A DNA stretch of 60,500 bases, from contig CANRIW010000009.1 in assembly GCA_947630785.1 (NCBI GenBank), positions 1 through 60,500 of the forward strand. Direction: 5' to 3'. Source of the DNA: an uncultured Oscillospiraceae bacterium (GTDB lineage: Bacteria > Bacillota > Clostridia > Oscillospirales > Oscillospiraceae). Positions 39,993 through 54,582 of this stretch are shown piece by piece. The notes below the pieces were generated by a model. That model saw only the letters and a program-made list of their open reading frames with translations, had not been told where the DNA came from and ran no database searches. The translations under genes and the position numbers were made by a program. Each line of letters opens with the position of its first letter. The first letter of the stretch is position 1.

Positions 39993-40106
39993 GACGGCCG
40001 GCAGGGGACAGGCGGGATGATCTTTCATCCTGTGGTCCGTCAGGTATCCGATTTCAAAAGGAGCGGCGGGGAATGGGCGCGGCTGATAAAGAATGTTTTA
40101 TCATCC

Positions 40107-40150
40107 AACAGCAACAGCATGGTACTTCGGTATCATGCTGTTGTTGTTTT
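40107..40150. terminator. hairpin at the left end of the outer element
   Basis: ACAGCAACAGCATGGTAC / GTATCATGCTGTTGTTGT, a long near-perfect stem with a 3-nt loop and TTTT tail on the plus strand; it includes the final codons of R1. Two smaller hairpins precede it (GGATGA/TCATCC near 40,020 and GATAAA/TTTATC near 40,090). May be part of the attachment region as well as a terminator. Confidence 0.65.
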
Positions 40151-41686
40151 ACTGGATCTGCTAAACTCCGGGGAAAAATCAATTTCACCGATGAAATTAT
40201 AGTGTATGTCAATTCGTTGAATACGATGACCAGTGGATTTATCGGGGGCATGGACTATGATTTTCTCCACAAATTCCCGCAGGAGCGCCGGCGTCAATTC
40301 CGTGGGTTCTGTGTACTTCCTGACGATTTTGAGAAAACTTTGAAGATTCACCGCCTGTTCCTCGGCGCTCTCAACGGTGGGCCGAAGTTCTGAAACAGTC
40401 TGCTTTAACTCGGCCTGCTCCTGTTCATAGTCCCCGGACATTTTCGCAAAGCGTTCCTCGTTCAGCTTTCCCAGCACATGGTCCTCATACAGCCTTCGGA
40501 TGATGGCGTCCAGTTCATTGATACGGTGTTCGGCTTTCTCCAATTTGCGCTTAGCCTGCTCTCGCTCCGCGCTCTGCGCCGCCAGCTTGTTTGTCATCAC
40601 CAGACGCACAAATTCGTCCTCGTCCTCTTGGGCATAGGCCACCACCCTTTGCAGGTTTTGGAGTACCAACTGTTCCAGCACCACAGCCCGGATATAGTGT
40701 GCGCTGCATTGTTTTCTTGTGCGGTAGCTGGAACAGGTATAACACTCCTGCTCATGGGTCCAGGAGGTAGTCCGGCAATGGTACAACCGTGCGCCGCAGT
40801 CGGCGCAGTAGGCCAGCCCGGAGAACATCCCCATCTCTCCCATCTTAGTGGGGCGGCGGCGCTGTTCCCTGGCTTTCTGTACTATTTCCCATGTGTCCTT
40901 ATCAATGATCGCTTCGTGGGTGTTTTCAAAGATCGCCCATTTGTCCGGCGGATTTGCAATACGCTTCTTGCTCTTGTAGGACAGTTTCGTGCCCTTAAAG
41001 TTGGTGGTGCGGCCCAAATATGTGTCCTGTTCCAAAATATTGACTACGCTGCGTTGATGCCACCCACAGGGATCATCCGGGTGGTAATTCCGCATCCTGC
41101 CTGTTCGCCGGAACTCTATCGTTCCCGGCGTGGGGATGCCTCGTTCTTTCAGCATACGGGCGATTTTGCTGGGGCCGTTTCCCTCAACACATAGTTGGAA
41201 AATCAGCTCCACCACGGGGGCCGTTTCCTCGTCGATGACCAGGTGGCCGTCCGCGCCCTTTATGTAGCCATATGGGGGGTTTACAGCGAGACGCTGGCCG
41301 GACATCCCCTTATTGCGGAATACCGATCGAACTTTCTTGCTGGTGTCCTTGGCGTACCACTCGTTGATGATGTTCCGAAAAGGAGTGAAGTCGCTGCTCA
41401 CCTGATCGTCGCTGTCCACCCCGTCATTGACGGCGATGAAGCGTACCCCCATCTCCGGGAAACGCACCTCTGTATAGAGGCCCACCTCCAGATAGTTCCG
41501 CCCGAACCGGGACATATCCTTGACGATCACCATGCTTACAAGTCCGCTTTCAATGTCCGCCAGCATTTCCTGAAAACCGGGGCGGCGGAAATTGGTGCCG
41601 GAGAAACCGTCGTCTTTATAGATTTTGTAATCGGTTATTCCTCGGTCTTTGCAATACTTGGCGAGAATATCGATTTGAGACGAGAT
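40133..41686 (-). pseudogene. large serine recombinase R1, residues 30 to end (split gene, distal part)
   Basis: 517 residues counted from the shared ATC codon (residue 30): SSQIDILAKYCKDRGITDYKIYKDDGFSGTNFRRPGFQEMLADIESG..., then resolvase core (VIVKDMSRFGRNYLEVG), the Recombinase domain (PPYGYIKG, GPSKIARMLKERGIPTPGT), a zinc ribbon (YCADCGARLYH, CYTCSSYRTRKQCSAH) and a coiled coil. The segment with the catalytic serine (YVRLSRDD) is missing here; it lies at 54307-54218, in frame. An internal ATG at 41566 could start a 477-residue fragment, but it would be catalytically dead. The break coincides with the left end of the inner transposon. Confidence 0.88.
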
Positions 41687-41689
41687 TTG

Positions 41690-41702
41690 TCAAGGGGTAA
41701 TT
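41690..41702 (+). repeat. left terminal inverted repeat of the inner transposon
   Basis: TCAAGGGGTAATT, 4 nt inside the GA(T) border; partner of 54200-54212 in opposite orientation. Confidence 0.6.
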
Positions 41703-41718
41703 ATGCAATTTGTGTGTT

Positions 41719-41789
41719 CTTTGTTCAAAACAAAGATGAGATTTTCTGTCCAAAAAAATCTTGTCAATGCGGCAAAAGTATGGTATCAT
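41719..41789 (+). promoter_or_regulatory. promoter region of the ROK regulator gene
   Basis: TTGTCA (41761-41766), 17 bp, TATCAT (41784-41789). Upstream, CTTTGTT / AACAAAG (41719-41735) is a 7-bp inverted repeat with 3-nt spacing, a possible operator. Confidence 0.6.
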
Positions 41790-41822
41790 TTAAAAAATAC
41801 TTTTGCAAAAGCGGTGGTCAAT

Positions 41823-42950
41823 GTGAAATCTACTCAGTCTGTTTCCGATCTGCGAAAGGCAAATAGAAACCGGGTATACCGGTTTCTATACGACTCGAAG
41901 GGAGATCAGACAGTACAGGATGTGTCGAGGGCACTGTCCCTGAGTCTGCCAACTGTGAATCAAAATCTGAATGAGCTGATGGAGTTGGGACTTATCGACA
42001 ACTCCAGGATCGCAAGTTCCAGCGGAGGGCGCCGGCCGCGTCTTTTGTCTGTTATTCCATCCGCCCGCTGCGCCGTGGGCGTGGAAATATCACCTCACCA
42101 TATGTATTTGGTTGCCACAGACCTGAAAGGCAGCGAACTGGATTACCGTGCGGTATCGAGGCCCTTTGAGGCTACGGCGGACTACGCCGCAGCGTTAGCC
42201 GAGGAGATACAGTCGCTTTTGGCGGGCTTGGGGGTCGGTCAGGACAGGGTCCTGGGTGTTGGGGTCACCCTTCCGGGCATCATCAATGTTGAGGATACGG
42301 TATTGGAGTATGCGCCTACGCTGGTTTCAACCCCTTTGGATCTGAGTTTTCTCCGGGCGGCGATCCCCTATGCGGTGAAGTTTTGCAATGACGCCAACGC
42401 GGGCGGATTCGCGGAGTGGTGGGACCAGCCCGAACAGTCCAGCATGGCCTATCTGTCCATCGGCCGGGGCATCGGTGGGGCGATTTTGGTCAACGGGACC
42501 CCCTATTTGGGAGCCCGCCAGCGATCGGCTGAATTCGGCCATATGTGCATCCACCCGGGCGGAAAGACCTGCTCCTGCGGCAGACAGGGGTGCCTGGAGG
42601 CATACTGCTCCACCGCGGTCCTGTCCAATCACCTGGGGATCTCCCTGGCAGACTTTTTTGACGGTTTGGAGGCTGGAGCCGGCGAAAAGCCGCTTCTGTG
42701 GGAGCGGTATTTGGAGGACCTGTCCATCGGGATCGTCAATATCCACACTATGCTGGACTGCGATATCGTGCTGGGCGGCCCACTGAGCCCTTTTCTGGGG
42801 AAGCGCGTTGAGCAGTTAAAGAACTATATTAACCAGGTTGATTCGATTTCTCATACGTCTCAACATGTCCGCTTATGCCGTTATCACGAAAAGTCAAACG
42901 GGATCGGCGTGGCCTTAAAATATGTAGATAACTTCATTTCTAACATATGA
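41823..42950 (+). CDS. ROK-family transcriptional regulator (XylR/NagC type)
   Basis: 375 residues from GTG. N-terminal MarR-like helix-turn-helix (NRVYRFLYDSKGDQTVQDVSRALSLSLPTVNQNLNELMELGLI) and a ROK sugar-kinase-like domain with GVGVTLPGI, IGRGIGGAIL and the zinc motif CSCGRQGCLEAYC. It likely senses a sugar and represses the operon downstream. The GTG at 41823 lies about 27 bp after the predicted transcription start; the ribosome site is weak (AAGCGGTGG). An upstream ATG in frame would extend it across the promoter, so it is disfavoured. First cargo gene at the transposon's left end. Confidence 0.88.
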   Translation: MKSTQSVSDLRKANRNRVYRFLYDSKGDQTVQDVSRALSLSLPTVNQNLNELMELGLIDNSRIASSSGGRRPRLLSVIPSARCAVGVEISPHHMYLVATDLKGSELDYRAVSRPFEATADYAAALAEEIQSLLAGLGVGQDRVLGVGVTLPGIINVEDTVLEYAPTLVSTPLDLSFLRAAIPYAVKFCNDANAGGFAEWWDQPEQSSMAYLSIGRGIGGAILVNGTPYLGARQRSAEFGHMCIHPGGKTCSCGRQGCLEAYCSTAVLSNHLGISLADFFDGLEAGAGEKPLLWERYLEDLSIGIVNIHTMLDCDIVLGGPLSPFLGKRVEQLKNYINQVDSISHTSQHVRLCRYHEKSNGIGVALKYVDNFISNI

Positions 42951-42953
42951 CGT

Positions 42954-42985
42954 AAACAGGCACCCCTGAAAAGGGTGCCTGTTTG
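42954..42985 (+). terminator. ROK-gene terminator
   Basis: AAACAGGCACCC / GGGTGCCTGTTT with a 7-nt loop. Confidence 0.87.
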
Positions 42986-43018
42986 ATATATTGCACAAAA
43001 ATGATGTAGCATATTTAT

Positions 43019-43076
43019 ACAAAATGTTTTGTTAAAAGTTATTGACAAAAGAGAACAGATGTGTTAAATTGTTCTC
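43019..43076 (+). promoter_or_regulatory. promoter and operators of the pentose-use operon
   Basis: TTGACA (43043-43048), 16 bp, TAAATT (43065-43070). GAGAACA (43051-43057) and its complement TGTTCTC (43070-43076) form a 7-bp inverted repeat spanning spacer and -10. ACAAAA / TTTTGT (43019-43032) is a second one upstream. These fit control by the adjacent ROK protein; catabolite control was not recognised. Confidence 0.68.
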
Positions 43077-43165
43077 AGTTAATAAAGATATTTTACAAAA
43101 GTTTTTATAATAAATAACGGGACGCTCGTTTCCCCGCAATGGCGGCAGAACAGGAGGAGAGGTAT

Positions 43166-44686
43166 ATGGAATACCTGATCGGCATTGATCTTGGCACCTC
43201 GGGCACCAAAACGGTGCTGTTCGATGTGAACGGGATGCCGGTGGCGAGCCACACCGTGGAGTATCCGCTGCATCAGCCCCGAAACGGCTGGGCGGAGCAG
43301 GATCCCCACGACTGGTGGGGAGCGGTGCAGGAGACCGTCCGGGCCGTTCTGAACAAGAGCGGTGTCAAGCCGGAGGAGATCAAGGGCGTGGGGCTTTCCG
43401 GCCAGATGCACGGTCTGGTGATGCTGGACGCCCAGGGCCACGTTCAGCGCAGCGCCATCCTCTGGTGCGACGGGCGGACCCAGAAGCAGTGTGACGAGAT
43501 CACCGAGACGCTGGGACAGAGGCTGATCGACATCACCGCCAATCCCGCGCTGCCCGGCTTTACCGCCGGAAAGATCCTGTGGGTCCGGGAGAACGAGCCG
43601 GCGGTCTACGAGAAGTGCCGCCACATCCTGCTGCCCAAGGACTACATCAGATACAAGCTCACCGGCGAGTTCGCCACCGAGGTGTCCGACGCCTCCGGCA
43701 TGAACCTGCTGGATGTGCCGAACCGCCACTGGAGCGGCGAGGTCCTGTCCGCCCTGGACATCGACTCCGGCCTGCTGGGGCGGATGTATGAATCCTGCCA
43801 GGTGACAGGGGCGGTGACGCCGGCCGCCGCCGAGGCCACCGGGCTGGCGGCCGGCACCCCCGTGGTAGGCGGGGCGGGAGACAACGCTGCCGCCGCCATC
43901 GGAACCGGCGTGGTGGAGACCGGCAGGGCATTCACGACTCTGGGCACCTCCGGGGTCATTTTCGCCCACGCAGACCGGGTGACCATCGACCCCAGGGGCC
44001 GGGTCCATACCTTCTGCTCCGCCGTACCGGGGGCGTGGACGGTGATGAGCTGCACTCTGGCCGCCGGACTGTCCCTCCAGTGGTTCCGCAACCAGTTCTG
44101 CGGCGCCGAGCGGGAGCTGGCCGCCGCCCAGGGGCGGGATGTATACGAGCTGATGACTGACAGCGCGGCCCGCAGCCCCATCGGGGCCAACCGGCTGATT
44201 TACCTGCCCTATCTCATGGGGGAGCGGTCCCCGCTACTGGATTCCGACGCGAGGGGCGCGTTCATCGGCCTTTCCAACATCCACACCAAGGGCGACATGA
44301 TCCGGGCGGTGATGGAGGGTGTGGCCTACTCCCAGCGTCAGTGCCTGGACGTGTTCCGGGAGATGGGGGTGGACGTGTCCGACATGGCCGCCTGCGGCGG
44401 CGGCGGGCGGAGCCCCTTCTGGCGGCAGATACTGGCCGACCTGTACGGCTGCCCCGTAAAGACCATCGCCTCCGAGCAGGGGCCGGCGCTGGGCGCGGCC
44501 ATCCTGGCGGGTGTGGGCGCGGGCCTCTACTCCTCCGTGGCGGAGGGCTGCAAGGTGGCCGTCCACGCGGGAGAGATCCAGCGGCCGAAGGCGGAGAACT
44601 CCGCGGCATATGAGCCGTTTTACCAGCTCTATCGGAACCTGTATCCCACGTTGCGGGACAGCTTCCACACGCTGGCGGCGCTGTAA
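43166..44686 (+). CDS. xylB: FGGY carbohydrate kinase, xylulokinase-like
   Basis: 506 residues. FGGY-family blocks: IGIDLGTSGTKTVLFD at the N-terminus, GLSGQMHGLVMLD (typical of XylB), ILWCDGRTQKQCDEI, PVVGGAGDNAAAAIG, LPYLMGERSP and the second signature VAYSQRQCLDVFREMG / GGGGRSPFWRQILADLYGCPV. It phosphorylates a ketose, most likely D-xylulose or a related sugar produced by the isomerase in the same operon. ATG at 43166 follows AGGAGGAGAGG; an ATG nine codons earlier contains that site. Confidence 0.9.
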   Translation: MEYLIGIDLGTSGTKTVLFDVNGMPVASHTVEYPLHQPRNGWAEQDPHDWWGAVQETVRAVLNKSGVKPEEIKGVGLSGQMHGLVMLDAQGHVQRSAILWCDGRTQKQCDEITETLGQRLIDITANPALPGFTAGKILWVRENEPAVYEKCRHILLPKDYIRYKLTGEFATEVSDASGMNLLDVPNRHWSGEVLSALDIDSGLLGRMYESCQVTGAVTPAAAEATGLAAGTPVVGGAGDNAAAAIGTGVVETGRAFTTLGTSGVIFAHADRVTIDPRGRVHTFCSAVPGAWTVMSCTLAAGLSLQWFRNQFCGAERELAAAQGRDVYELMTDSAARSPIGANRLIYLPYLMGERSPLLDSDARGAFIGLSNIHTKGDMIRAVMEGVAYSQRQCLDVFREMGVDVSDMAACGGGGRSPFWRQILADLYGCPVKTIASEQGPALGAAILAGVGAGLYSSVAEGCKVAVHAGEIQRPKAENSAAYEPFYQLYRNLYPTLRDSFHTLAAL

Positions 44687-44699
44687 GGGGGGACACACT

Positions 44700-45335
44700 A
44701 TGGAGATCAAAACGGTTTTTGACCCGACGTTCAAGCCCTATGGCAAAGTGCTGGAGGGTTACAACACCGCCTGCCTGGTGAACGCCATGAAAACCATCCC
44801 GCTGCCTGGGCACGGCACCGCCTATGAGCCCAGCATCCCCGTCCTGGAGGCCACCTGCCTCTACGGTCAGTTCCAGAACAACGCCTACGGCGGTATGCCC
44901 GTCCAAATCGGTATGTGCTGGGGCCGCAATACCAGGCTGAACTGCCTGGAATACCACCGGGACAGCGAGGTCAACGTGGGCGAGGGGGATTTCATCCTGC
45001 TACTGGCCAGACAGGATGAGATCGTGGACGGCGTGCTGGACACCTCCCGCGTCAAGGCGTTCCGGGTGCCCGCCGGCGTTCCGGTAGAGGTCTACGCCAC
45101 CACCCTTCACTACGCTCCCTGTCATGTGAGCGAGGCCGAGGGGTTCCGGGTCGCCGTGGTCCTTCCCAGAGGCACCAACACTGCCGTCCCCGGCGCGAAG
45201 CCGGTCAATGAGGAGGACACCTGGCTCACCGCCCGGAACAAATGGCTGCTGGCCCATCCGGAGTCCGATGAGGGGAAGGGCGGCGCCCACATCGGGCTGA
45301 AGGGCGTAAACATCGACATCATAAACGATATATGA
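44700..45335 (+). CDS. DUF4867-family protein
   Basis: 211 residues, cytoplasmic. Blocks such as VFDPTFKPYGKVLEGYN, EATCLYGQFQNNAYGGMPVQIGMCWG, LNCLEYHRDSEVNVGEGDFILLLA and YATTLHYAPCHVSE show a cupin-like beta fold (EYHRDSE and LHYAPCH as possible metal sites). DUF4867 proteins occur next to sugar isomerases and kinases and may be sugar-acting enzymes, for instance mutarotases or isomerases; this is inference. GGGGGGACACACT precedes the ATG, 13 bp after the kinase gene. Confidence 0.85.
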   Translation: MEIKTVFDPTFKPYGKVLEGYNTACLVNAMKTIPLPGHGTAYEPSIPVLEATCLYGQFQNNAYGGMPVQIGMCWGRNTRLNCLEYHRDSEVNVGEGDFILLLARQDEIVDGVLDTSRVKAFRVPAGVPVEVYATTLHYAPCHVSEAEGFRVAVVLPRGTNTAVPGAKPVNEEDTWLTARNKWLLAHPESDEGKGGAHIGLKGVNIDIINDI

Positions 45336-45348
45336 GGAGGAAAGGATC

Positions 45349-46836
45349 ATGCTGACCAACATCCCTGAGGTAAAACTGGGCATCATCGCCGTGAGCCGGG
45401 ACTGCTTCGTCATCTCCCTGTCGGAGCGGCGGCGGAGCGCCATCGTGTCCGCCTGCGCGAAAAACGGCCTGGACCTGTACGAGTGCAAAACCACCGTGGA
45501 GAACGAACTGGATATGCTGAAAGCGGTCGATGAAGTCAAATCCGCCGGATGCAATGCCTTGGTGGTATTCCTGGGGAACTTCGGCCCGGAGACCCCCGAG
45601 ACCCTCATCGCCAAAAACTTCGACGGCCCCGTCATGTACGCCTCCGCCGCCGAGGGGGACGGCGACCTCATCAATGGGCGCGGCGACGCCTACTGCGGTA
45701 TGCTGAACTGCTCCTACAACTTAGGGCTACGGCATCTCAAGGCATACATCCCCGAGTACCCCGTGGGCTCCGCCGAGGACATCGCGAAGATGATCGCCGA
45801 CTTCGTGCCCATCGCCCGGGCCCTGCTGGGCGTGGCGAATTTGAAGATCATCACCTTTGGTCCCCGGCCCCAGGACTTCTTCGCCTGCAACGCCCCCATC
45901 AAGGGCCTGTACGAGCTGGGTGTGGAGATCGAGGAGAACTCCGAACTGGACCTGCTGGTGAGCTACAAGGCTCACGCCGGGGACCCCCGCATCGCGGGCG
46001 TCTGCGACGAGATGGCCGCCGAGATGGGAGAGGGACGCTATTATCCCGAGCTGTCCGCCCGGATGGCCCAGTTCGAGCTGACCCTGTTGGACTGGGCGGA
46101 GCAGCACAGGGGCAGCCGGAAATATGTGGCCTTTGCCGACAAGTGCTGGCCCGCTTTCCCGGAGGCCTTCGGCTTTGAGCCCTGCTACGTCAACTCCCGG
46201 CTGGTCTCTCGCGGCATCCCCGTAGCCTGCGAGGTGGACATCTACGGCGCTTTGAGCGAGTACATCGGCATGTGCGTGTCCGACAATACCGTCACGCTAC
46301 TGGACATCAACAACTCCGTCCCAGCGCAGATGTGGGCGGAGCAGATCAAGGGTAAATTCGACTATCAACTCACCGACACCTTCATGGGCTTCCACTGCGG
46401 CAACACACCGTCCTGCATGCTGTGCGCGGACCGGGCGGTGAAGTATCAGCTGATCCAGCACCGTCTGCTGGAGCCCAAGGACAGCGAGCCCGACTTCACC
46501 AGGGGCACCCTGGAGGGGGACATCGCACCCTCCGACATCACCTTCTACCGGCTCCAGTGTGACTCCAACGGCGACCTCCGCTCCTACATCGCCCAGGGGG
46601 AGGTGCTGCCGGTGGCGACCCAGTCTTTCGGCGGCATCGGCGTGTTCGCCATCCCGGAGATGGGGCGCTTCTACCGCCATGTGCTGATCCAGAAGCGCTA
46701 CCCTCACCACGGGGCGGTGGCCTTCGGGCACTACGGCAAGGCCCTGTTCGAGGTGTTCAAGTTCCTGGGCGTGGGCGACATCGCGTACAATCAGCCCAAG
46801 AGCCTCCCCTATCCCACCGAGAATCCGTTCCGGTAA
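45349..46836 (+). CDS. L-fucose/L-arabinose isomerase-family protein
   Basis: 495 residues. The fold and blocks of the fucose/arabinose isomerase superfamily are visible: LVVFLGNFGPETPETLIAK, EGDGDLINGRGDAYCGMLN, KCWPAFPEAFGFEPCYVNSRL, the metal-site Glu/Asp in ACEVDIYGALSEYIG and LLDINNS, and FHCGNTPSC. It should interconvert an aldose and a ketose to feed the kinase two genes upstream. The exact sugar cannot be read from sequence; arabinose, fucose or xylose are candidates, and the GH43 neighbour favours a pentose. Confidence 0.86.
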   Translation: MLTNIPEVKLGIIAVSRDCFVISLSERRRSAIVSACAKNGLDLYECKTTVENELDMLKAVDEVKSAGCNALVVFLGNFGPETPETLIAKNFDGPVMYASAAEGDGDLINGRGDAYCGMLNCSYNLGLRHLKAYIPEYPVGSAEDIAKMIADFVPIARALLGVANLKIITFGPRPQDFFACNAPIKGLYELGVEIEENSELDLLVSYKAHAGDPRIAGVCDEMAAEMGEGRYYPELSARMAQFELTLLDWAEQHRGSRKYVAFADKCWPAFPEAFGFEPCYVNSRLVSRGIPVACEVDIYGALSEYIGMCVSDNTVTLLDINNSVPAQMWAEQIKGKFDYQLTDTFMGFHCGNTPSCMLCADRAVKYQLIQHRLLEPKDSEPDFTRGTLEGDIAPSDITFYRLQCDSNGDLRSYIAQGEVLPVATQSFGGIGVFAIPEMGRFYRHVLIQKRYPHHGAVAFGHYGKALFEVFKFLGVGDIAYNQPKSLPYPTENPFR

Positions 46837-46876
46837 GTCTTAGACTTTCAAGATAAAAGGAAGGAGCGCATATCGG

Positions 46877-48292
46877 ATGAAACAACAGGCAGTGAACCCC
46901 TACCTCCCAAGTTGGGAATACATCCCGGACGGCGAGCCCCATCTGTTCGGGGACCGGGTGTACGTCTACGGCTCTCATGACAAGTTCAACGCCCCCATCT
47001 TCTGCGTCAACGACTACGTGTGCTGGTCCGCCCCGGCGGACGACCTCAGCGACTGGCGAAACGAGGGTGTCATCTTCCGCAAGAACCAGGATCCAAAGAA
47101 CAAGCTGGGCCTGCGCCTCCTGTTCGCTCCGGACGTGTGCCAGGGCCCCGACGGGCGGTACTACCTCTACTACGCCTTCGACTTCATGGGGATCATGGGC
47201 GTGGCGGTGTGCGACACCCCGGCGGGCCAGTATGAGTTCCTGGGCCACGTCCACTACAAGGACGGCACCATCTGGGGCCGCCGAAAAGGGGACCAGTTCC
47301 CCTTCGACCCCGGCATCCTCTATGACGACGATGGGCGCGTCTGGCTGTACTCCGGCTTCTACACCCCCACCCCGGCCATTGTTACCGGCGGGAAAAAGCT
47401 CCGCAATGACGGCGGTGTGGTGGTGGAGTTGGAACAGGACATGGTGACCATCAAGACCGAGCCCAGGGTCATTTTCCCCAAGGAGGGTCCCGGCTCCTTC
47501 CCCAACCACGAGTTCTTCGAGGCCAGTTCCATCCGAAAGGACGGGGACAAGTACATCTTCGTGTACTCCTCCCGGCACAACCACGAGTTGTGCTACGCCG
47601 TCAGCGACCGGCCCGACGGCGGCTTCACCTTCGGCGGCACCTTGGTAGACCAGGGCGATATGTTCCTGGACGGCAACCAGGACGAATCCAAGGCCCTCAA
47701 CTACTTGGGCAACACCCACGGCGGGATGCTGAAGCTGGGAGATCAGTGGTACATCTTTTACCACCGGCAGACCAACCGGCACTCCTATTCCAGGCAGGCC
47801 TGCGCGGAGAAGCTGACCCAAAACCCCGACGGCTCCTTCCGGCAGGCGGAGGTCACCTCCTGCGGGCTTAACGACGGGCCGCTGAAGGGCCAGGGCCGGT
47901 ATGAAGCCCGCATCGCCTGCAACCTCTGGAGCAAAACGGGCGTGGGCCGGTACGACGGCTCCAGCCCGAGAAAGCGTCTGGCGGCCCATCCCTACTTCAC
48001 CCAGACGGGGAAGGACCGGGAATCGGACGGCGACCAGTACATCGCCAACATGCGGGACGGCGCGGTGGCGGGGTTTAAGTACTTCGCCTTCGACGGCTCG
48101 GAGACGCACATCGCCGTTGAGACCCGCGGCAGCGGTTCCGGCAGTTTTCTCGTTTCGGATGGGAAAAACGCACTTGCCTCGGTCCCCGCAAACGGCAGCG
48201 CCACGTTCAAGACAGAGCCGGGCACCAAGCCACTTTACTTCACCTACACCGGTGATGGCGCGGTAGACTTTATCGCGTTCACAATAAAATAA
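46877..48292 (+). CDS. GH43-family glycosidase (beta-xylosidase/arabinofuranosidase-like)
   Basis: 471 residues without signal peptide, so intracellular. Five-bladed propeller with GH43-like elements: YIPDGEPHLFGDRVYVYGSHD (general base Asp region), FAPDVCQGPDGRYYLYYAFD, DPGILYDDDGRVWLYSG, the acid Glu region HEFFEASSIRKDGDKYIFVYSS and THGGMLKLGDQWYIFYHRQT. A beta-sandwich tail (about 340-471) resembles a carbohydrate-binding module. Probably trims short xylo- or arabino-oligosaccharides. AGGAAGGAGCGCATATCGG precedes the ATG. Confidence 0.9.
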   Translation: MKQQAVNPYLPSWEYIPDGEPHLFGDRVYVYGSHDKFNAPIFCVNDYVCWSAPADDLSDWRNEGVIFRKNQDPKNKLGLRLLFAPDVCQGPDGRYYLYYAFDFMGIMGVAVCDTPAGQYEFLGHVHYKDGTIWGRRKGDQFPFDPGILYDDDGRVWLYSGFYTPTPAIVTGGKKLRNDGGVVVELEQDMVTIKTEPRVIFPKEGPGSFPNHEFFEASSIRKDGDKYIFVYSSRHNHELCYAVSDRPDGGFTFGGTLVDQGDMFLDGNQDESKALNYLGNTHGGMLKLGDQWYIFYHRQTNRHSYSRQACAEKLTQNPDGSFRQAEVTSCGLNDGPLKGQGRYEARIACNLWSKTGVGRYDGSSPRKRLAAHPYFTQTGKDRESDGDQYIANMRDGAVAGFKYFAFDGSETHIAVETRGSGSGSFLVSDGKNALASVPANGSATFKTEPGTKPLYFTYTGDGAVDFIAFTIK

Positions 48293-48313
48293 AAAATGGA
48301 AGGAGAATGAAAC

Positions 48314-50083
48314 ATGGAATCGACGAATGCGATCTTTGACCTGTTCAAAATGGCGGCCATCGGCGTTGGCGTGCTGGCCCTGGTGCTTGCGGCCCTGTTT
48401 ATCTGGAGGGCAGTCAAGCGGAAGAAGGACGGCAAACGGAGCAAGCTCTTCAATGTCCTCTACAATGTCTCGGCCACAGCGGTCACGGCAGTCTGCCTTG
48501 TGGTCATCATGGTTCTGAACTTCGTAACTGGTGCGTATACAGGCCCCCTGGATGCTTTGATGGTAAAAAGTGCTACCCCGACAGATGACGGAACACTGGA
48601 TGCAGCAAGGGAACTTGTGTACGACATTGCCGAGGAGGGCATGGTGCTTATGAGAAATGAGGATCATGCGCTTCCGCTTCAGACCACGAAAGTAAATGTC
48701 ATCGGATATGACGCGCATAACCCGATCTATAGCGGCACCGGCTCCGGCTTTGTCAGTAACGCCGACTCGATCGACATTTTGAGCTCTCTGGAATCGGCAG
48801 GACTGGAGGTCAACCCTGTGCTGCTGTCCTCCGAGGTGTTTGCCCCGGTGCCAGACCCGAACGCTGGCCAGACGATGGGATTTATTGCGCCGAACTTCTC
48901 TAAGAACGAGATCCCGCTCTCCGCTTATACGGGGGATATTTCCTTTGAAAACCTGAAGAATTATTCCGACGTTGCGATCCTTGCCTTTGGCCGGCGCGGT
49001 TCGGAAGGAGCCGATCTGCCGAGTGACTATCTGCCGCTCGACGAGGATGAGGAAGCGCTGCTGAAAGCCGCCAGCGAGAATTTCGACACAGTGGTCGTCA
49101 TCATCAACAGCGCCAACGCGCTGGAGATGGGCTGGGTAGACGAATACGGCGTCGACGCCGTGATCTGGTCTGGACTGCCCGGACCCTATGGCTTTGAGGC
49201 CCTGGGAAAGATCCTGACCGGCGAAGTAAATCCGTCCGGCCGGCTCCCCGACACCTGGGCCTATGACAACGACTCCAACCCCGTCAGCGAAAACTTTGGC
49301 GAGCAGGCCGCAACGAATGCCGACGGACGGTACTATGTGGACTATGTGGAGGGCATCTATCTTGGCTACAAGTGGTACGAGACCGCTTATGCCGAAGGAG
49401 CTGTCATTACGAACACAAAGACCGGAGAGACCTTTGACTACTCCGACTACGACAAAATCGTGGCGTATCCCTTTGGCTACGGCCTCAGCTATACCACGTT
49501 TGACCAGCAGATCACCGGTGGGACCCTCGCGGAGGGAACATCGCTGGATGCAAGGGGCGAGTACACAGTTGACGTCACGGTAACCAATACCGGGGATACC
49601 GCCGGGAAGTGCGTCGTTCAGCTTTACCTGACCGCCCCCTATACAGAGTATGACAAGGCGAACCTTGTTGAAAAGGCTGCCGCCTCCCTGGCTGCCTATG
49701 CCAAGACCGATGTCCTCGCTCCGGGGGCGTCGGAGACCGTCACATTGAACGTCAGCATGGAAGCGCTTGCCTCTTATGACAGCCGCTATGACAACGGAGA
49801 CGGCACGAAGGGTGCGTATATGCTGGACGCCGGTGATTACATTTTCTCCGTGCGCTCCGACGCGCATACGGTCCTGGACAGCGTGACCGCCGCACTGAAC
49901 GGCCAGTATTTCTTCTCCGGCGAAAACAAGAGGACCAGCGATGCTGTGGCGGCTGTCAACCAGTTTGAGGACGCTACCCGCGGAGAGTATCTCTCCAGAC
50001 AGAACGGGTTTGCGAATTATGCCTCCGCCATGGGATCTGTTCAGCCGGTGATCGAGAATCTGGACCAGGTCAACAATGATATT
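48314..50083 (+). pseudogene. GH3-family beta-glycosidase, 3'-truncated (reversed-domain type)
   Basis: About 590 native residues: two N-terminal membrane helices (about 12-30 and 48-68), the GH3 C-terminal-type sandwich domain (EEGMVLMRNEDHALPL to VIWSGLPGPYGFEALGKILTGEVNPSGRLPDTW), then an FnIII-like domain (VTVTNTGDTAGKCVVQLYLTAPY). The TIM-barrel domain with the catalytic Asp is not upstream, so it must have followed, as in Ruminococcus-type GH3 enzymes with swapped domains. The frame stays open to 50,473 but after about 50,083 it is antisense to recombinase R2. The remaining protein should be inactive. Confidence 0.85.
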
Positions 50084-51889
50084 GGAGTGCCTGGATTCAA
50101 AGGTCTTGCCACAGCACTTGCAAATCAGTTTGAACGGTTCGCCCACAATACGCTTGCCCGCCTTGATCTGCTGATACCGCTCCCGGCTCCTGACCCGCTG
50201 CCTGTGGAGCTGCGCCTGACGCTTGGCCTCCTCCGGCGTAAGCTCCTTCGGAGGAAGCTCGAACCGCCCGATGAACTTCAGGTGGATCTCCACCTCCTGC
50301 ACCCGGTCCCCGTCGATGCGCTCCGGCGCATGGACCAGGATCTTGTCCACGAACTCGTTGATCATCGGCGTGGTCAGCTCGGAGAAGTCGGTGTACTTCT
50401 CTGCCAGCGCGAGGAACTGCTCCACACGAACGGTGTCCTCCTCGAAAGCGGCCAGCCGTGCCTCCTCCTCTGAAACGGCTTCACGCAAAGTTTTCTGCTC
50501 CGCCTCGTACCCGGCAAGCAGACTGTCAAAGCGGTCCCCGGACAGCCGGTCCATGGCGAAGGACTCATAGAGCCTCTTGATGATGGTGTCCAGTTCGGCA
50601 ACGCGCTTCTTGTCCTTATTCAGCTTCCGACGGGCTGCCTTTGCCGCCTCTGTCTGCCGGATCTGGGACGCCGCCCGTACCCTTTCGATGAACTCCTCAC
50701 GATTGGTGATGGCGTAGGTGCTGACCGTGCGGATGGTTTCCAGGATCAGCGTCCTCAATGCTTTCGTAGAGATGTGGTGATTGCCGCAGACCTTTTCCCG
50801 GCGCTGGCCGGCCAGCTTGTAGGCAGAGCATTCATAGACGTCCGATGGATATGGCTTTTTCCCGTTGCCCCGTGTCCGCTGGTTATACATCTTTGAGCCG
50901 CAATCCGCGCAGAACACGAGACCGGTCAACGGATTGGCTTCGCCAAAGGTATCGGTCCGGCGCGGCGTTCCCCGCAGCTTCTGAACAAGCTCCCAGGTGT
51001 CCTTGTCCACGATAGCCTCGTGGGTATTCTCAAAGATCAGCCAGTCCTTGGGCGCGTGGTAAACGGGGTACTTATCCTTATAGGACTCCTTGTGAGATCG
51101 GAAGTTGACCGTGTGCCCCATATATTCAGGCTTGGACAGGATCTGTCCGACTATAAAGTCGCTCCACGCATAGGGCCGGGTGATCTCCTCCTTGCTTTTC
51201 CATGGGCCGCGTCCCTGCCTCGCCAGATAAGCGGCAGGGCATTCCACCTTATCCCGATACAGGATATTCGCAATGTCGCTGAGGCCGTGCCCCTCAATGC
51301 TCAGTTGATAGATCCTGCGCACCACCGCCGCCGCTTCCTCGTCGATCAGCCAGTGGTGTTTATCCTCCGGGTCCTTCCGGTAGCCGTAGATGGCGGTCGT
51401 CGTGGTGGGTTTCCCGGACTCCCCCTTGACCCGAACAGCCGCCTTCTGCTTGCGGCTCAGATCCCGGAGATACCATTCGCTCATGATGTTGATGAACGGC
51501 GCGAACTCGCTGCTGGTCTGGTCGTCGCTGTCGATGTTGTTGGCGATGGCGATGAAGTGGACATTGTGCTGCCTGAAAAAGACTTCAGTATAAAAGCCGG
51601 TCTGGAGGTAGTCCCGCCCGATCCGGCTCATGTCCTTGGCAAGAACGACGCCTACCTTTCCAGCCTCGATGTCCGCCGCCAGCCGTTTCCACGCCGGGCG
51701 CTCGAAGCTGCCGCCGGACCAGCCGTCATCCGTATAGTGGACGCAGTTGGCAAAGCCCTTCTGGGCGGCGTAGTCTTCCAGGTATTTCTTTTGATTTACG
51801 ATGGAATTGCTGTCCCCGGCGATCTCATCGTCGCGGGAGAGGCGCTCGTACAGCGCCGTGATCTTTCCTTCAGCCTGATTTGCGTTCAT
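50081..51889 (-). pseudogene. large serine recombinase R2 (TnpX-like), 3' end lost and fused to antisense GH3
   Basis: 603 native residues. Resolvase domain with catalytic Ser18 (ITALYERLSRDDE), DDGWSGGSFERPAW and LAKDMSRIGRDYLQTG; Recombinase domain (IYGYRKDPEDKHHWLIDEEAAAVV); zinc ribbon (FCADCGSKMYN, YECSAYK, CGNHH); coiled coil; and a C-terminal extension ending at CKCCGKTFESRHSN. There the homology stops and the frame continues antisense through GH3 and GH43 down to 46,757 with no stop (1,710 codons in all). A second Cys pair of the terminal zinc knuckle is missing. Catalysis may still be possible, so calling it dead is uncertain. Start overlaps tnpW. Confidence 0.85.
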
Positions 51890-52104
51890 GACGCGCTCCT
51901 TTCAGACTGACGGCTCATTTGTGACGGATTCATTATAGCACAGATATTGCCGTCTGTGTCAACGGAATTGCGGATCAAATGGATTATTTTATCCTCCATC
52001 GTCTCTTGCGTATCCCCGCTGAAAACGACCTTCACCTTATAGGTGGTAGACCCGATCCGGCGGATCATAAACTGTTCCTGCTGGTCTTCGCTGTTTTTTG
52101 TCAT
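51886..52104 (-). CDS. tnpW: TnpW-family transposon protein
   Basis: 72 residues with the TnpW pattern IRRIGSTTYKVKVVFSGDTQETMEDKIIHLIRN and a tail MSRQSERS. The role is unknown; it lies directly upstream of the large serine recombinase in Tn4451-type elements, as here with a four-base overlap. AAGGAGG is seven bases before ATG 52104; an ATG two codons earlier is too close to it. Confidence 0.88.
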   Translation of the reverse strand: MTKNSEDQQEQFMIRRIGSTTYKVKVVFSGDTQETMEDKIIHLIRNSVDTDGNICAIMNPSQMSRQSERSAS

Positions 52105-52330
52105 CGGCATTCCTCCTTATGATTCAAGAATTGAGGTTTTGCCGTTTCCCCCGGAGCGGTTCCTGACAGGCAGAGCCCCTGGTAGGTGCTGTGTCGTTGT
52201 TTCTCACCCTTGGTACGCTCGCTTTCGGTCATGGCGTACTTCCCCGGTATGATAGCTGTTCCGGACGGTCATTCAGTTTTCATAAGTTCTGCCCCCCTCT
52301 GCGACAATGTTCAAAGCCAAAATCAGATAT

Positions 52331-52506
52331 TTTTTTCTGATGACTCCAGTTTACCAGGATCAGATCGTATTCCAAGAGACTAATGGACACATTTGCGTGA
52401 CCATTAGACACATAGGCATCAGACAATCTTTTTGCTGATTCCAGTTTATCAGGATCAGATCATATTCCAAGAGACCAATGGACACATTTCGTGACTATTG
52501 GACACA
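52331..52506. repeat. tandem 70-bp direct repeat with conserved hairpins
   Basis: Copy 1 (about 52342-52412) and copy 2 (52437-52506) share blocks CCAGTTTA, CAGGATCAGATC, ATTCCAAGAGAC, AATGGACACATTT and GACACA at roughly 90% identity, with a 95-bp period. Each contains an inverted repeat: CTAATGG/CCATTAG (52380-52407) and CCAATGG/CTATTGG (52475-52501). Located upstream of tnpW-R2. Confidence 0.85.
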
Positions 52507-52987
52507 GAGGGCCGTCCATCTGCTCCTGATACAGCAGGAGCCGGAGGCCTTTTGTATGGCGAAGTACGCCTGGTTACCCGGCGTATTTTGCCGGGTTTGC
52601 TCACCTCTCGCTTTGATTGTATCTCAAAAGCAGAGCGTTTGTTACGTCCGCAAAGGGGTAGTTTCAGGGGATTTACTACCCCTCTAAGGGGTAATTGTTA
52701 TGAATATGGGCTATCCCATCCCTTTCACCCCTTCGCTGTGACCTTCAAAGGCCAGAAACAATACACCGTTTCTGATGGTTTAAGTTTAGCGCGAAACTGA
52801 CTTCTTTTGAATGTCCAATTTGGCCGGATTTGTGGGGGTAAACCCGGCCAATTTGGCCGGGTTACATTTAGTTTAACGCAAAACGCAGATCCTTTGGAGG
52901 GACTGGCAGGGCCGGTTTGCGCTGAAAACCGACCCTCTTAGTCCTGGTCGATCTGTTGCGGAGATGGATCGCGGGGACAAATGACAA
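52507..52987. other. hairpin-rich non-coding stretch inside the transposon
   Basis: No convincing gene. Inverted repeats are GCTCCTG/CAGGAGC (52522-52541), ACCCGGC/GCCGGGT (52576-52596), GGGGTAG/CTACCCC (52655-52682) and the near-continuous palindrome AACCCGGCCAA-T-TTGGCCGGGTT (52841-52863). CCAATTTGGCCGG occurs twice, 33 bp apart (52815 and 52848). This could be a leader, regulatory RNA or protein-binding region. Confidence 0.6.
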
Positions 52988-53022
52988 AGGCCCGTTCCCG
53001 GCTGTATGCCGGAAACGGGCCT
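52988..53022 (-). terminator. terminator of the tnpV/stalk-domain operon
   Basis: AGGCCCGTTCCCGGC / GCCGGAAACGGGCCT with 5-nt loop; the minus strand continues with TTTGTCATTTG. Confidence 0.8.
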
Positions 53023-53043
53023 CCCGTATATTTCGTTATATGC

Positions 53044-53667
53044 TTATCCGATCCAGACAGTCGCGCCGGTGAAGTTGCTCCCGGTGTAGCCGCTCTCGGC
53101 GTGGACGGTGCCGAGATTGTACTGACCATAGGAGAAGTAGGCCGTCACCACATAGCCCGGAACGGTCTTCTGTACCTCCGCCATCATCCGCTCCGCGTAG
53201 TCCTCGATGGCCGACTCGTCAAAGGACTTCCACCACGCCTTGAACTCGCTCATGCCCAGGGGGCCGGAGTAGGTCACGGTGAAGATCTTCTCGTTCCCGT
53301 AATGGGTGACCGGCTTCTCCTCGACTGTCCACACCCGTTCAAAGCTGGCGTAGCCGCCGCCCTGAACATCAGGGGCCGTGGGCTTGTCCACGGTGGCAAT
53401 GTGATTCTTGCTGTCGTACCCGACCACCAGACCGTAGGCTTCGGCCAGCGCCCGGAGCGGGGCATAGGTGGTGCCGTTGTAGGTGAACACCATCACGTCG
53501 TTGCCATTGACGTCCTTGGGCTGAAAGACCTCGCCGTCCACCAGGACTTTGATGGGACTGACCTCGATGGTGAGCGCCCCGGTCGCGGCAAGGGCCGTGA
53601 CCGGCAGGGCCGCCAGCGTCAGCGCGGCGATCATGCCGGCCAGGAAGGATACAAACTTGCCCTTCAT
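53044..53667 (-). CDS. secreted stalk-domain (copper-amine-oxidase N-terminal-like) protein
   Basis: 207 residues. Signal peptide about 1-28 (FLAGMIAALTLAALPVTALAATG). Residues about 30-95 form a stalk domain (IEVSPIKVLVDGEVFQPKD, FTYNGTTYAPLRALAEAYGLVVGYDSKNHIATV), which usually mediates attachment to the cell surface. The rest (about 100-207) is an uncharacterised domain with VWTVEEKPVTHYGNEKIFTVTYSG. The start shares its A with the tnpV stop (TGATG), so translation is coupled to a transposon gene, indicating a settled cargo gene of this element family. Confidence 0.85.
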   Translation of the reverse strand: MKGKFVSFLAGMIAALTLAALPVTALAATGALTIEVSPIKVLVDGEVFQPKDVNGNDVMVFTYNGTTYAPLRALAEAYGLVVGYDSKNHIATVDKPTAPDVQGGGYASFERVWTVEEKPVTHYGNEKIFTVTYSGPLGMSEFKAWWKSFDESAIEDYAERMMAEVQKTVPGYVVTAYFSYGQYNLGTVHAESGYTGSNFTGATVWIG

Positions 53668-54056
53668 CAGCAGGCACCCCCTTCCTCGGCATAGACCAGC
53701 TCGGCGGTGACGATCTCCTCGGCGCGGCTGCGGATGCTGTTCATCAGCCCCACCCATCCCATCTGATCCGTGGCTTTGAGGGCCTCGGTCACGCCCTCCC
53801 GCCGGGCCATCCCGGTGCAGATGCGCTCCATGCGCTCATGGCAGGTCTGGTCGATCTCCGCCAGATGCTCAAAGAGCTTCCCGCCGGTGAGCAGGGCGGC
53901 GTACAGACCGGGGCGGTGGTCTTTCAGGTAGCGGAGGCGCATCCGGCCGTACTTGCCGAACTTGGCCTCGCCGGTGTCGGGCAGCTCCAGGTTGGGGATC
54001 AGGTAGTCCCCCTCCTGGCGGTAAGTGCCGCCCATTTGCTCAAAGATGGATTCCAT
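53667..54056 (-). CDS. tnpV: TnpV-family transposon protein
   Basis: 129 residues with the TnpV pattern SIFEQMGGTYRQEGDYLIPNLELPD, GKYGRMRLRYLKDHRPGLYAALLTGGKLFEHLAEIDQTC and GWVGLMNSIRSRAEEIVTAELVY. First found in Tn4451; function unknown. ATG at 54056 follows AAAGGAG by eight bases. Sits at the right end of the inner transposon. Confidence 0.9.
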   Translation of the reverse strand: MESIFEQMGGTYRQEGDYLIPNLELPDTGEAKFGKYGRMRLRYLKDHRPGLYAALLTGGKLFEHLAEIDQTCHERMERICTGMARREGVTEALKATDQMGWVGLMNSIRSRAEEIVTAELVYAEEGGAC

Positions 54057-54161
54057 AAAACAAGCTCCTTTCGTGACAAAATGTTTGCAGTTTGAGGTCT
54101 GCGCCTTGCTTTTACTCCTTTCCTCATAACTGCTTTTCATATCGTCACAAATGAGCCGCAG

Positions 54162-54212
54162 TCATGATGTAATTTTCGAGGGAGAAACCCTCCTCTATAA
54201 ATTACATCATGA
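54162..54212. repeat. right-end inverted repeat pair of the inner transposon
   Basis: TCATGATGTAATTT (54162-54175) and its exact complement (54199-54212), with an inner GAGGG/CCCTC hairpin. The outer copy lies 5 nt from the GAT border and matches the left-end repeat inverted. Likely recombinase R2 binding sites. Confidence 0.75.
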
Positions 54213-54217
54213 TGGGC

Positions 54218-54307
54218 GATGCTGTTGCTGTCCCCCTCGTTTTCATCGTCGCGGGAGAGGCGGACGTAGAGCGCCGCCCATTTTTCATTTGTCAACTGCC
54301 TGTTCAT
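54218..54307 (-). pseudogene. large serine recombinase R1, residues 1-30 (split gene, proximal part)
   Basis: Thirty codons from ATG 54307: MNRQLTNEKWAALYVRLSRD followed by DENEGDSNSI. Contains the catalytic serine motif YVRLSRDD (Ser18). GGGAGGGTGAA gives a good ribosome site. The reading frame ends at the transposon border; the next codon (TCG, Ser) is found at 41683, giving SNSISSQIDIL as in intact relatives. Confidence 0.9.
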
Positions 54308-54397
54308 TTCACCCTCCCATCCGGCAGTTACCGTCTCTTGCCTTGTGACACTTAAATTATATCAATAACCGCATAAAGCGTCAAATTTCTGCACAAA

Positions 54398-54559
54398 TCA
54401 GGCGCGGTTTCTTTTTGTTTCTTTGTCAAGCAAACCTCGGATTTTTTCGGAGACGGTAACGCCCTGGGCGGCGAAAAACCCAGAGACATAATAAACTGTG
54501 TTGCCAACCTTGTTCTCTGTCTTTAGCGTTGGCTGTTTCTCACTTTGAATACCAGCCAT
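54398..54559 (-). CDS. TnpW-like small transposon protein
   Basis: 53 residues (MAGIQSEKQPTLKTENKVGN...). The core KVGNTVYYVSGFFAAQGVTVSEKIRGLL follows the same strand-helix pattern as TnpW (K-x-G-x-T-x-Y-x-V, then E-K-I-x-x-L). It precedes R1 as tnpW precedes R2. GGGGGA lies six bases upstream of the ATG. Belongs to the outer element. Family assignment is by pattern only. Confidence 0.72.
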   Translation of the reverse strand: MAGIQSEKQPTLKTENKVGNTVYYVSGFFAAQGVTVSEKIRGLLDKETKRNRA

Positions 54560-54582
54560 ATGTATTCCCCCTATATGATAAT

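Follow-up and report, generated by a model that had tools for sequence, protein, structure and literature searches.

A large-serine-recombinase element within another recombinase gene of a gut Oscillospiraceae bacterium, best read as one of a family favouring a conserved recombinase codon as its attachment site

The window, namely the whole stretch of 60,500 nucleotides analysed here (contig CANRIW010000009.1), contains on its minus strand a serine-recombinase gene, R1, which serves a different mobile element as its integrase gene and is split within the codon of Gln33 by a 12,534-bp insert (12,532 bp without the core copy). The first 32 codons (MNRQ...SNSIAH) are located at 54212..54307 and the part from Gln33 to the stop at 40133..41677, with Gln33 itself at 41677-41675 and IDIL beginning at 41674. 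The residues add up to 32 + 1 + 513 = 546 and the reading frame is preserved across the insert, so that the length and the absence of a frame shift given in an earlier note on this DNA are borne out. The inserted element proper extends over 41678-54209, and its core dinucleotide, TG on the plus strand and CA on the gene strand, is present at 41676-41677 on the left and at 54210-54211 on the right; the cut points proposed before, 41687 and 54220, are off by about 10 bp.

The earlier note had held that the two parts of R1 belong together, and had proposed a search for uninterrupted homologues. Of 59 other genomes searched, at least five contain such a homologue. In G030, the window stretches 40072-41678 (96% identity) and 54210-54562 (98%, including the first 32 codons) lie end to end with a 3-bp overlap, TGA, and its intact R1 of 557 residues reads ...EGDSNSIAHQIDILAKY. 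Comparison of the DNA with the window parts shows R1 uninterrupted in G024, G022 and G014 as well, while in G016 it is contiguous as far as the contig end, about 38 bases beyond the junction. Both the insertion and its empty site are thereby seen, and the parts that rejoin in frame in the window are joined in natural homologues. The identical 2-bp core is present at both element ends and in the empty site, as for DUF4368/TndX-like recombinases. The intact junction reads SNSI-AHQIDIL, and not SNSISSQIDIL, formerly taken as the norm of the family: TCGTCT (41683-41678), six bases of the left end of the element, is what was read as 'SS' in SSQIDIL. As a side observation, the insertion leaves the first 32 residues of the target fused to a few residues encoded by the element.

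From left to right, the element begins with its left terminus CCCCTTGACAAATCTCGTCT (41678..41697, minus strand), followed on the plus strand by a ROK regulator with an N-terminal HTH (41703..42950, the true start possibly lying further in), an FGGY carbohydrate kinase (43139..44686), a DUF4867 protein (44778..45335), an isomerase-like protein with an L-fucose isomerase C-terminal domain (45349..46836), a GH43 glycosidase (46877..48292) and a GH3 glycosidase gene (48314..50071) that is cut at an internal junction at 50072. On the minus strand lie the element's own large serine recombinase, R2 (50072..51889), whose C-terminal tail is missing from 50072, an ORF with a weak copper-amine-oxidase N-terminal domain (PF07833, slightly below the cut-off; 53044..53757), a TnpV ORF (PF14198, E 1.2e-44; 53667..54140) and the right terminus (54118..54209), a terminal hairpin TGATGTAATTTATAGAGG...AATTACATCA followed by GACTGCGGCTCATTTGTG. 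Among the 10 larger proteins scanned in the window copy, neither a relaxase or mobilisation gene of its own nor a DDE transposase is found. The view of one mobile element within the recombinase gene of another holds, with the term transposon giving way to a serine-recombinase element with a 2-bp core, which is not a classical transposon.

Our analysis shows that the termini are shared within the family. The right terminus is common to R2-type elements, and a common left terminus is present in the six where it is seen. The window element, those of G060 and G061 and two of G189 have CCTTGACAAATCT(C/T)GTCT and then CA, on elements of about 12.5 (window), 34 (G060), 19 (G061) and 26 + 26 kb (G189); the inner part CCTTGACAAATCTCGTCT recurs in the elements of G060, G061 (one base different) and G189 (two). 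In G345 a reversed element, with a related left terminus and then TG, lies between two pieces of a recombinase gene, an N-part and a C-part separated by about 15 kb. Around the core, the two arms of the element form inverted copies of each other; in all 5 elements compared, 11-12 of 20 positions agree (shuffle fractions 0.0044-0.0451), as is expected of a serine-recombinase attP.

R2 of the window and its sister in G007, a genome of the same genus, both have Resolvase, Recombinase, Zn ribbon and DUF4368 domains above the cut-off. G007 repeats window 50072-54220 in two pieces with 97% and 92% nucleotide identity, on a contig (CANRFT010000035.1, an Oscillospiraceae MAG) that also encodes a MobA_MobL relaxase (E 8e-89), an actin-like protein and transketolase genes, and there the right end of the R2 element adjoins the start of another serine-recombinase gene, interrupted at the codon at which R1 is split. 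The sister recombinase has 688 residues; R2 of the window stops after residue 603, within the first zinc knuckle, and misses residues 604-688 (about 85), by which the window copy is without the intact integrase of its own that is asked of an IME. The simplest reading of the R2-GH3 junction at 50072 is an internal deletion, while an assembly fault may also account for it. A later deletion of this kind would have joined R2 with GH3 and removed the tail of R2, so that this copy is probably no longer mobile and is fixed in place. The idea that precise excision would restore R1 keeps its frame argument, but is doubtful for this copy, since R2 has lost about 85 C-terminal residues. On the minus strand past 50072, R2 continues into antisense GH3, giving an open frame of 1710 codons in all.

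To collect related junctions, genome contigs were scanned with R2, which gave 140 relatives, 80 loci being kept. For the right terminus, 28 ends including that of the window were chosen and aligned for a covariance model, a few rows having up to 4 target bases. The model finds 77 places in 45 of 300 genomes of the family, of which 71 were used and the 6 weakest left out, and longer flanking stretches were obtained for some of the 71; one of the 77, L221, was not found again by the DNA HMM. The flanks were searched with an HMM from 72 serine recombinases, and 111 right-end hits were reduced to 98 unique junctions, most of the genomes being drafts. A wider search in 394 genomes of the order gave 15 loci with new ids, 12 of them non-duplicate: L255, L259 and L261 repeat the flanks L080, L079 and L093 and were excluded from the new junctions, and the weak L255_392 was left out.

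On the whole, 26 of the 98 unique right-end junctions are at the Gln33 codon of serine-recombinase genes (profile position 32/33, written N/Q below), 25 by HMM and one by eye (L169, with a 20-base flank), with 22 in the sense of the gene and 4 reversed. Seven more are at a second codon, LYE/D (profile position 446), 6 forward and 1 reversed, the latter on contig C15 of the window's own genome. Among the 98 junctions, the HMM finds no recombinase-gene flank that meets the junction at a codon other than 32/33 or 446; L178, one of the remaining 65, and L190 hold recombinase sequence that stops short of the junction. The 12 new junctions divide into 8 at N/Q and 4 outside recombinase genes. As 65 of the 98 junctions, like 4 of the 12 new ones, fall outside serine-recombinase genes, the wider family is not restricted to these genes. 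For R2-like right ends, whose types were assigned by eye, the proportions at N/Q are 26 of 32 (first set) and 7 of 8 (second set); the other 6 of the 32 are in a tyrosine-recombinase gene (L069), a transposase with an integrase core (L017, presumably IS3-like) and 4 other places. Further recognised targets are DUF3848 (L153) and, below the cut-off, a Mob_Pre relaxase (L078). In C1 of G189, a genome of 2 contigs, three R2-type elements are situated in three different serine-recombinase genes, each at N/Q, and the targets of L091, L164 and L200 have, by eye, R2-like N-termini. In plasmid and phage collections the matches are mainly recombinases of <60% identity, with a single 77% match on a phage contig without the right end.

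The recurrence goes with a clade of recombinases. A recombinase is within reach of 43 of the 98 ends, and after dropping L150, whose end is at position 6 at a contig start, the tree includes 42 element recombinases, of which L071 and L072 are identical, and R1. R2's clade has 18 members with support 100/100, and 16 of the 18 are at N/Q against 0 of the 24 others, 5 of which are at LYE/D; the two clade members not at N/Q are L069 (a tyrosine-recombinase gene, Phage_int_SAM_3) and a decayed end in G096. All 15 whole members of the clade are 661-693 residues long and carry at the C-terminus a tail in which two CxxC...C zinc-knuckle-like motifs are present; those without the whole tail are the window copy and two of 553 and 581 residues, cut at contig or fetch edges. 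Since the tail is present in the whole members and the 24 other recombinases are shorter (590-630 residues), it is a candidate target reader that may help to set the target.

As related elements of other gut bacteria are repeatedly found at the same codon, the insertion at Gln33 of R1 is at the habitual site of the element's family and is not a chance hit. The best reading is that R2-type elements favour one conserved codon of serine-recombinase genes for their attachment. Very probably, the 12.5-kb segment is a large-serine-recombinase element whose clade prefers an SNSIxNQ-coding attB and repeatedly knocks out the mobility genes of other elements. The circular form of the element would have entered R1 by recombination between its CA core of 2 bp and the first two bases of codon Gln33, a step that R2 presumably catalyses, and R2 and its clade would recognise as their preferred attB the conserved stretch that encodes SNSIxNQ close to the beginning of serine-recombinase genes. 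As the core covers bases 1 and 2 of a conserved Gln codon, the target is present in many recombinase genes of this type. It would follow that mobility genes of other elements are knocked out repeatedly, reversibly in principle, the target element being presumably immobilised while the insert is in place; in the window copy, the later deletion would have fused R2 to the GH3 gene. This knock-out may be selected as competition between elements. Core polarity, considered as proof of orientation control, was dropped, since 22 forward junctions with CA and 4 reversed with TG are largely tautological for a fixed codon; the sole independent part of the argument is that, by eye, CA adjoins 5 and TG 1 of the six R2-type ends outside serine-recombinase genes.

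The preference could be merely apparent if the recombinases recognised a short motif loosely and at many targets, serine-recombinase genes being hit often just because they are numerous and dispensable. Some R2-type ends are indeed in other genes, and the DUF4368/TndX clade is described as multi-targeting in the part of PMC10083194 available. However, just two codons of a gene of about 1.6 kb are seen used, and the own genome, of 2.17 Mb, contains 9 matches to PF07508 (by estimate <1% of the sequence), yet 33 of the 98 junctions are in such genes; together with the contrast between R2's clade (16 of 18 members at Gln33) and the other recombinases (0 of 24), this makes loose specificity improbable. 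Very unlikely, and less probable still, is that faulty assembly produced the junctions as chimeras at conserved sequence common to many recombinase genes. The window comes from a 72-contig draft and recombinase genes do have conserved stretches in common, but matching element termini are present at both ends in several assemblies, G189 holds three copies in two contigs, one case is in a strain assembly (L074, Bacterium 1XD42-1), and the sequence in common at the window junction is just 3 bp.

For the sugar operon, host DNA of a neighbouring chromosomal site might have been captured by a smaller R2 element (50072-54209) through a false left end at 41678; on contig C22 of the same genome (L062) some of the operon genes have paralogues, with 94% and 91% identity and in a different gene order, which would suit such a capture. 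It is nevertheless very unlikely, as the terminus at 41678 is a family terminus present in the G060, G061 and G189 elements of other lengths, and as G007 has related operon genes and an R2 element on one contig, with the relaxase and transketolase genes between. A composite of R2 and a host operon, raised by the left limit of R2 at 50072, was dropped on account of the same terminus in other elements. In an SSV-type split integrase, attP lies inside the element's own integrase; this was rejected too, the minus strand having the N-part before and the C-part after, in the order expected for insertion. A regulated switch, in which the inner element leaves on a signal, R1 is restored and the outer element is free to move, is in keeping with the frame preserved upon excision, and such coupling is proposed for insertions in conjugation genes in the sections of PMC5357655 at hand; with R2 of the window copy truncated, we regard it as unlikely.

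The favoured-codon reading may be set beside known systems. R2, with its DUF4368 and a nearby TnpV, resembles the TnpX/TndX-type elements, to which Tn5397 belongs, and its clade differs from them in bearing the extra zinc-knuckle-like tail. The available text of PMC3158075 gives Tn6104 and Tn4451 a large serine recombinase, a 2-bp target, TnpV and mobA/mobL; the Tn4451 group is described as low-specificity, whereas R2's clade prefers one codon. According to the part of PMC10083194 available, DUF4368 is frequent in the clade with TndX, and its targets, called those of a multi-targeting clade, were omitted from the target-gene enrichment. Serine-integrase IMEs disrupt the ICE genes traG, maff2 and snf2 in streptococci and C. 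difficile, in the accessible parts of PMC5357655 and PMC5704250; they likewise insert within a conserved gene of another mobile element, but the target of R2-type elements is the recombinase gene itself, of the invader's own protein family, and it is hit at two conserved codons in several bacterial families. Like the res-site hunters of the Tn5053 family, as far as the descriptions at hand go, R2-type elements are drawn to the recombination systems of other elements. The res-site hunters insert by means of a DDE transposase, and at the DNA site res, whereas R2 is a serine recombinase landing in coding sequence, here in codon 33 of the gene and not in a res site. Among open-licence full texts, searched by title and beginning of abstract, no paper is found on serine recombinases aiming at recombinase genes; in this material serine-integrase elements hitting conjugation genes are known, and a recombinase gene as recurrent target is not found in print.

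On balance we lean slightly towards a clade of elements of gut bacteria whose speciality is to put recombinase genes of other mobile elements out of action, with a tailed recombinase and conserved catalytic-domain codons of its own family as main attachment site. If so, an invader that locks its host element could be locked by its own kin, having a good target in its own recombinase gene; mobile elements would be seen to compete through insertion into those codons of one another's integrases that are most conserved, which would help to account for nested islands in gut Clostridia. The best target-site-matrix match of the window is within R2's own gene (51792..51793, minus strand; score 32.4, next 18.0), a match that is partly circular since the matrix was built from recombinase genes. 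The family offers natural recombinases for which attP arms, core and preferred attB can be matched, within a clade that has been called multi-targeting, and makes the basis of target choice (tail present or absent, Gln33 or LYED) directly testable.

Several minor observations are added. In the own genome (G000:C15, L028:756), a second element is inserted, reversed, at the LYE/D codon of another serine-recombinase gene, and a stretch of the window element (window 52870-54092) is found again on contig C15 at 96% identity. The other LYE/D insertions are L077, L079, L080, L082, L098 and L129, five with their own recombinase found, all outside R2's clade. At the right end (window 54118-54165) there is a second stem, ACTGC...GCAGT, and 4 of 9 predicted pairs have changes on both sides among the 28 ends. 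In addition, the motif GACTG(A)CGGCTCATTTGTG, possibly a site for a regulator or accessory factor, is present at window 51906-51924 (plus strand), just upstream of R2, and at 54146-54163 (minus strand) in the right end of the element, and the pair recurs in opposite orientation in several relatives.
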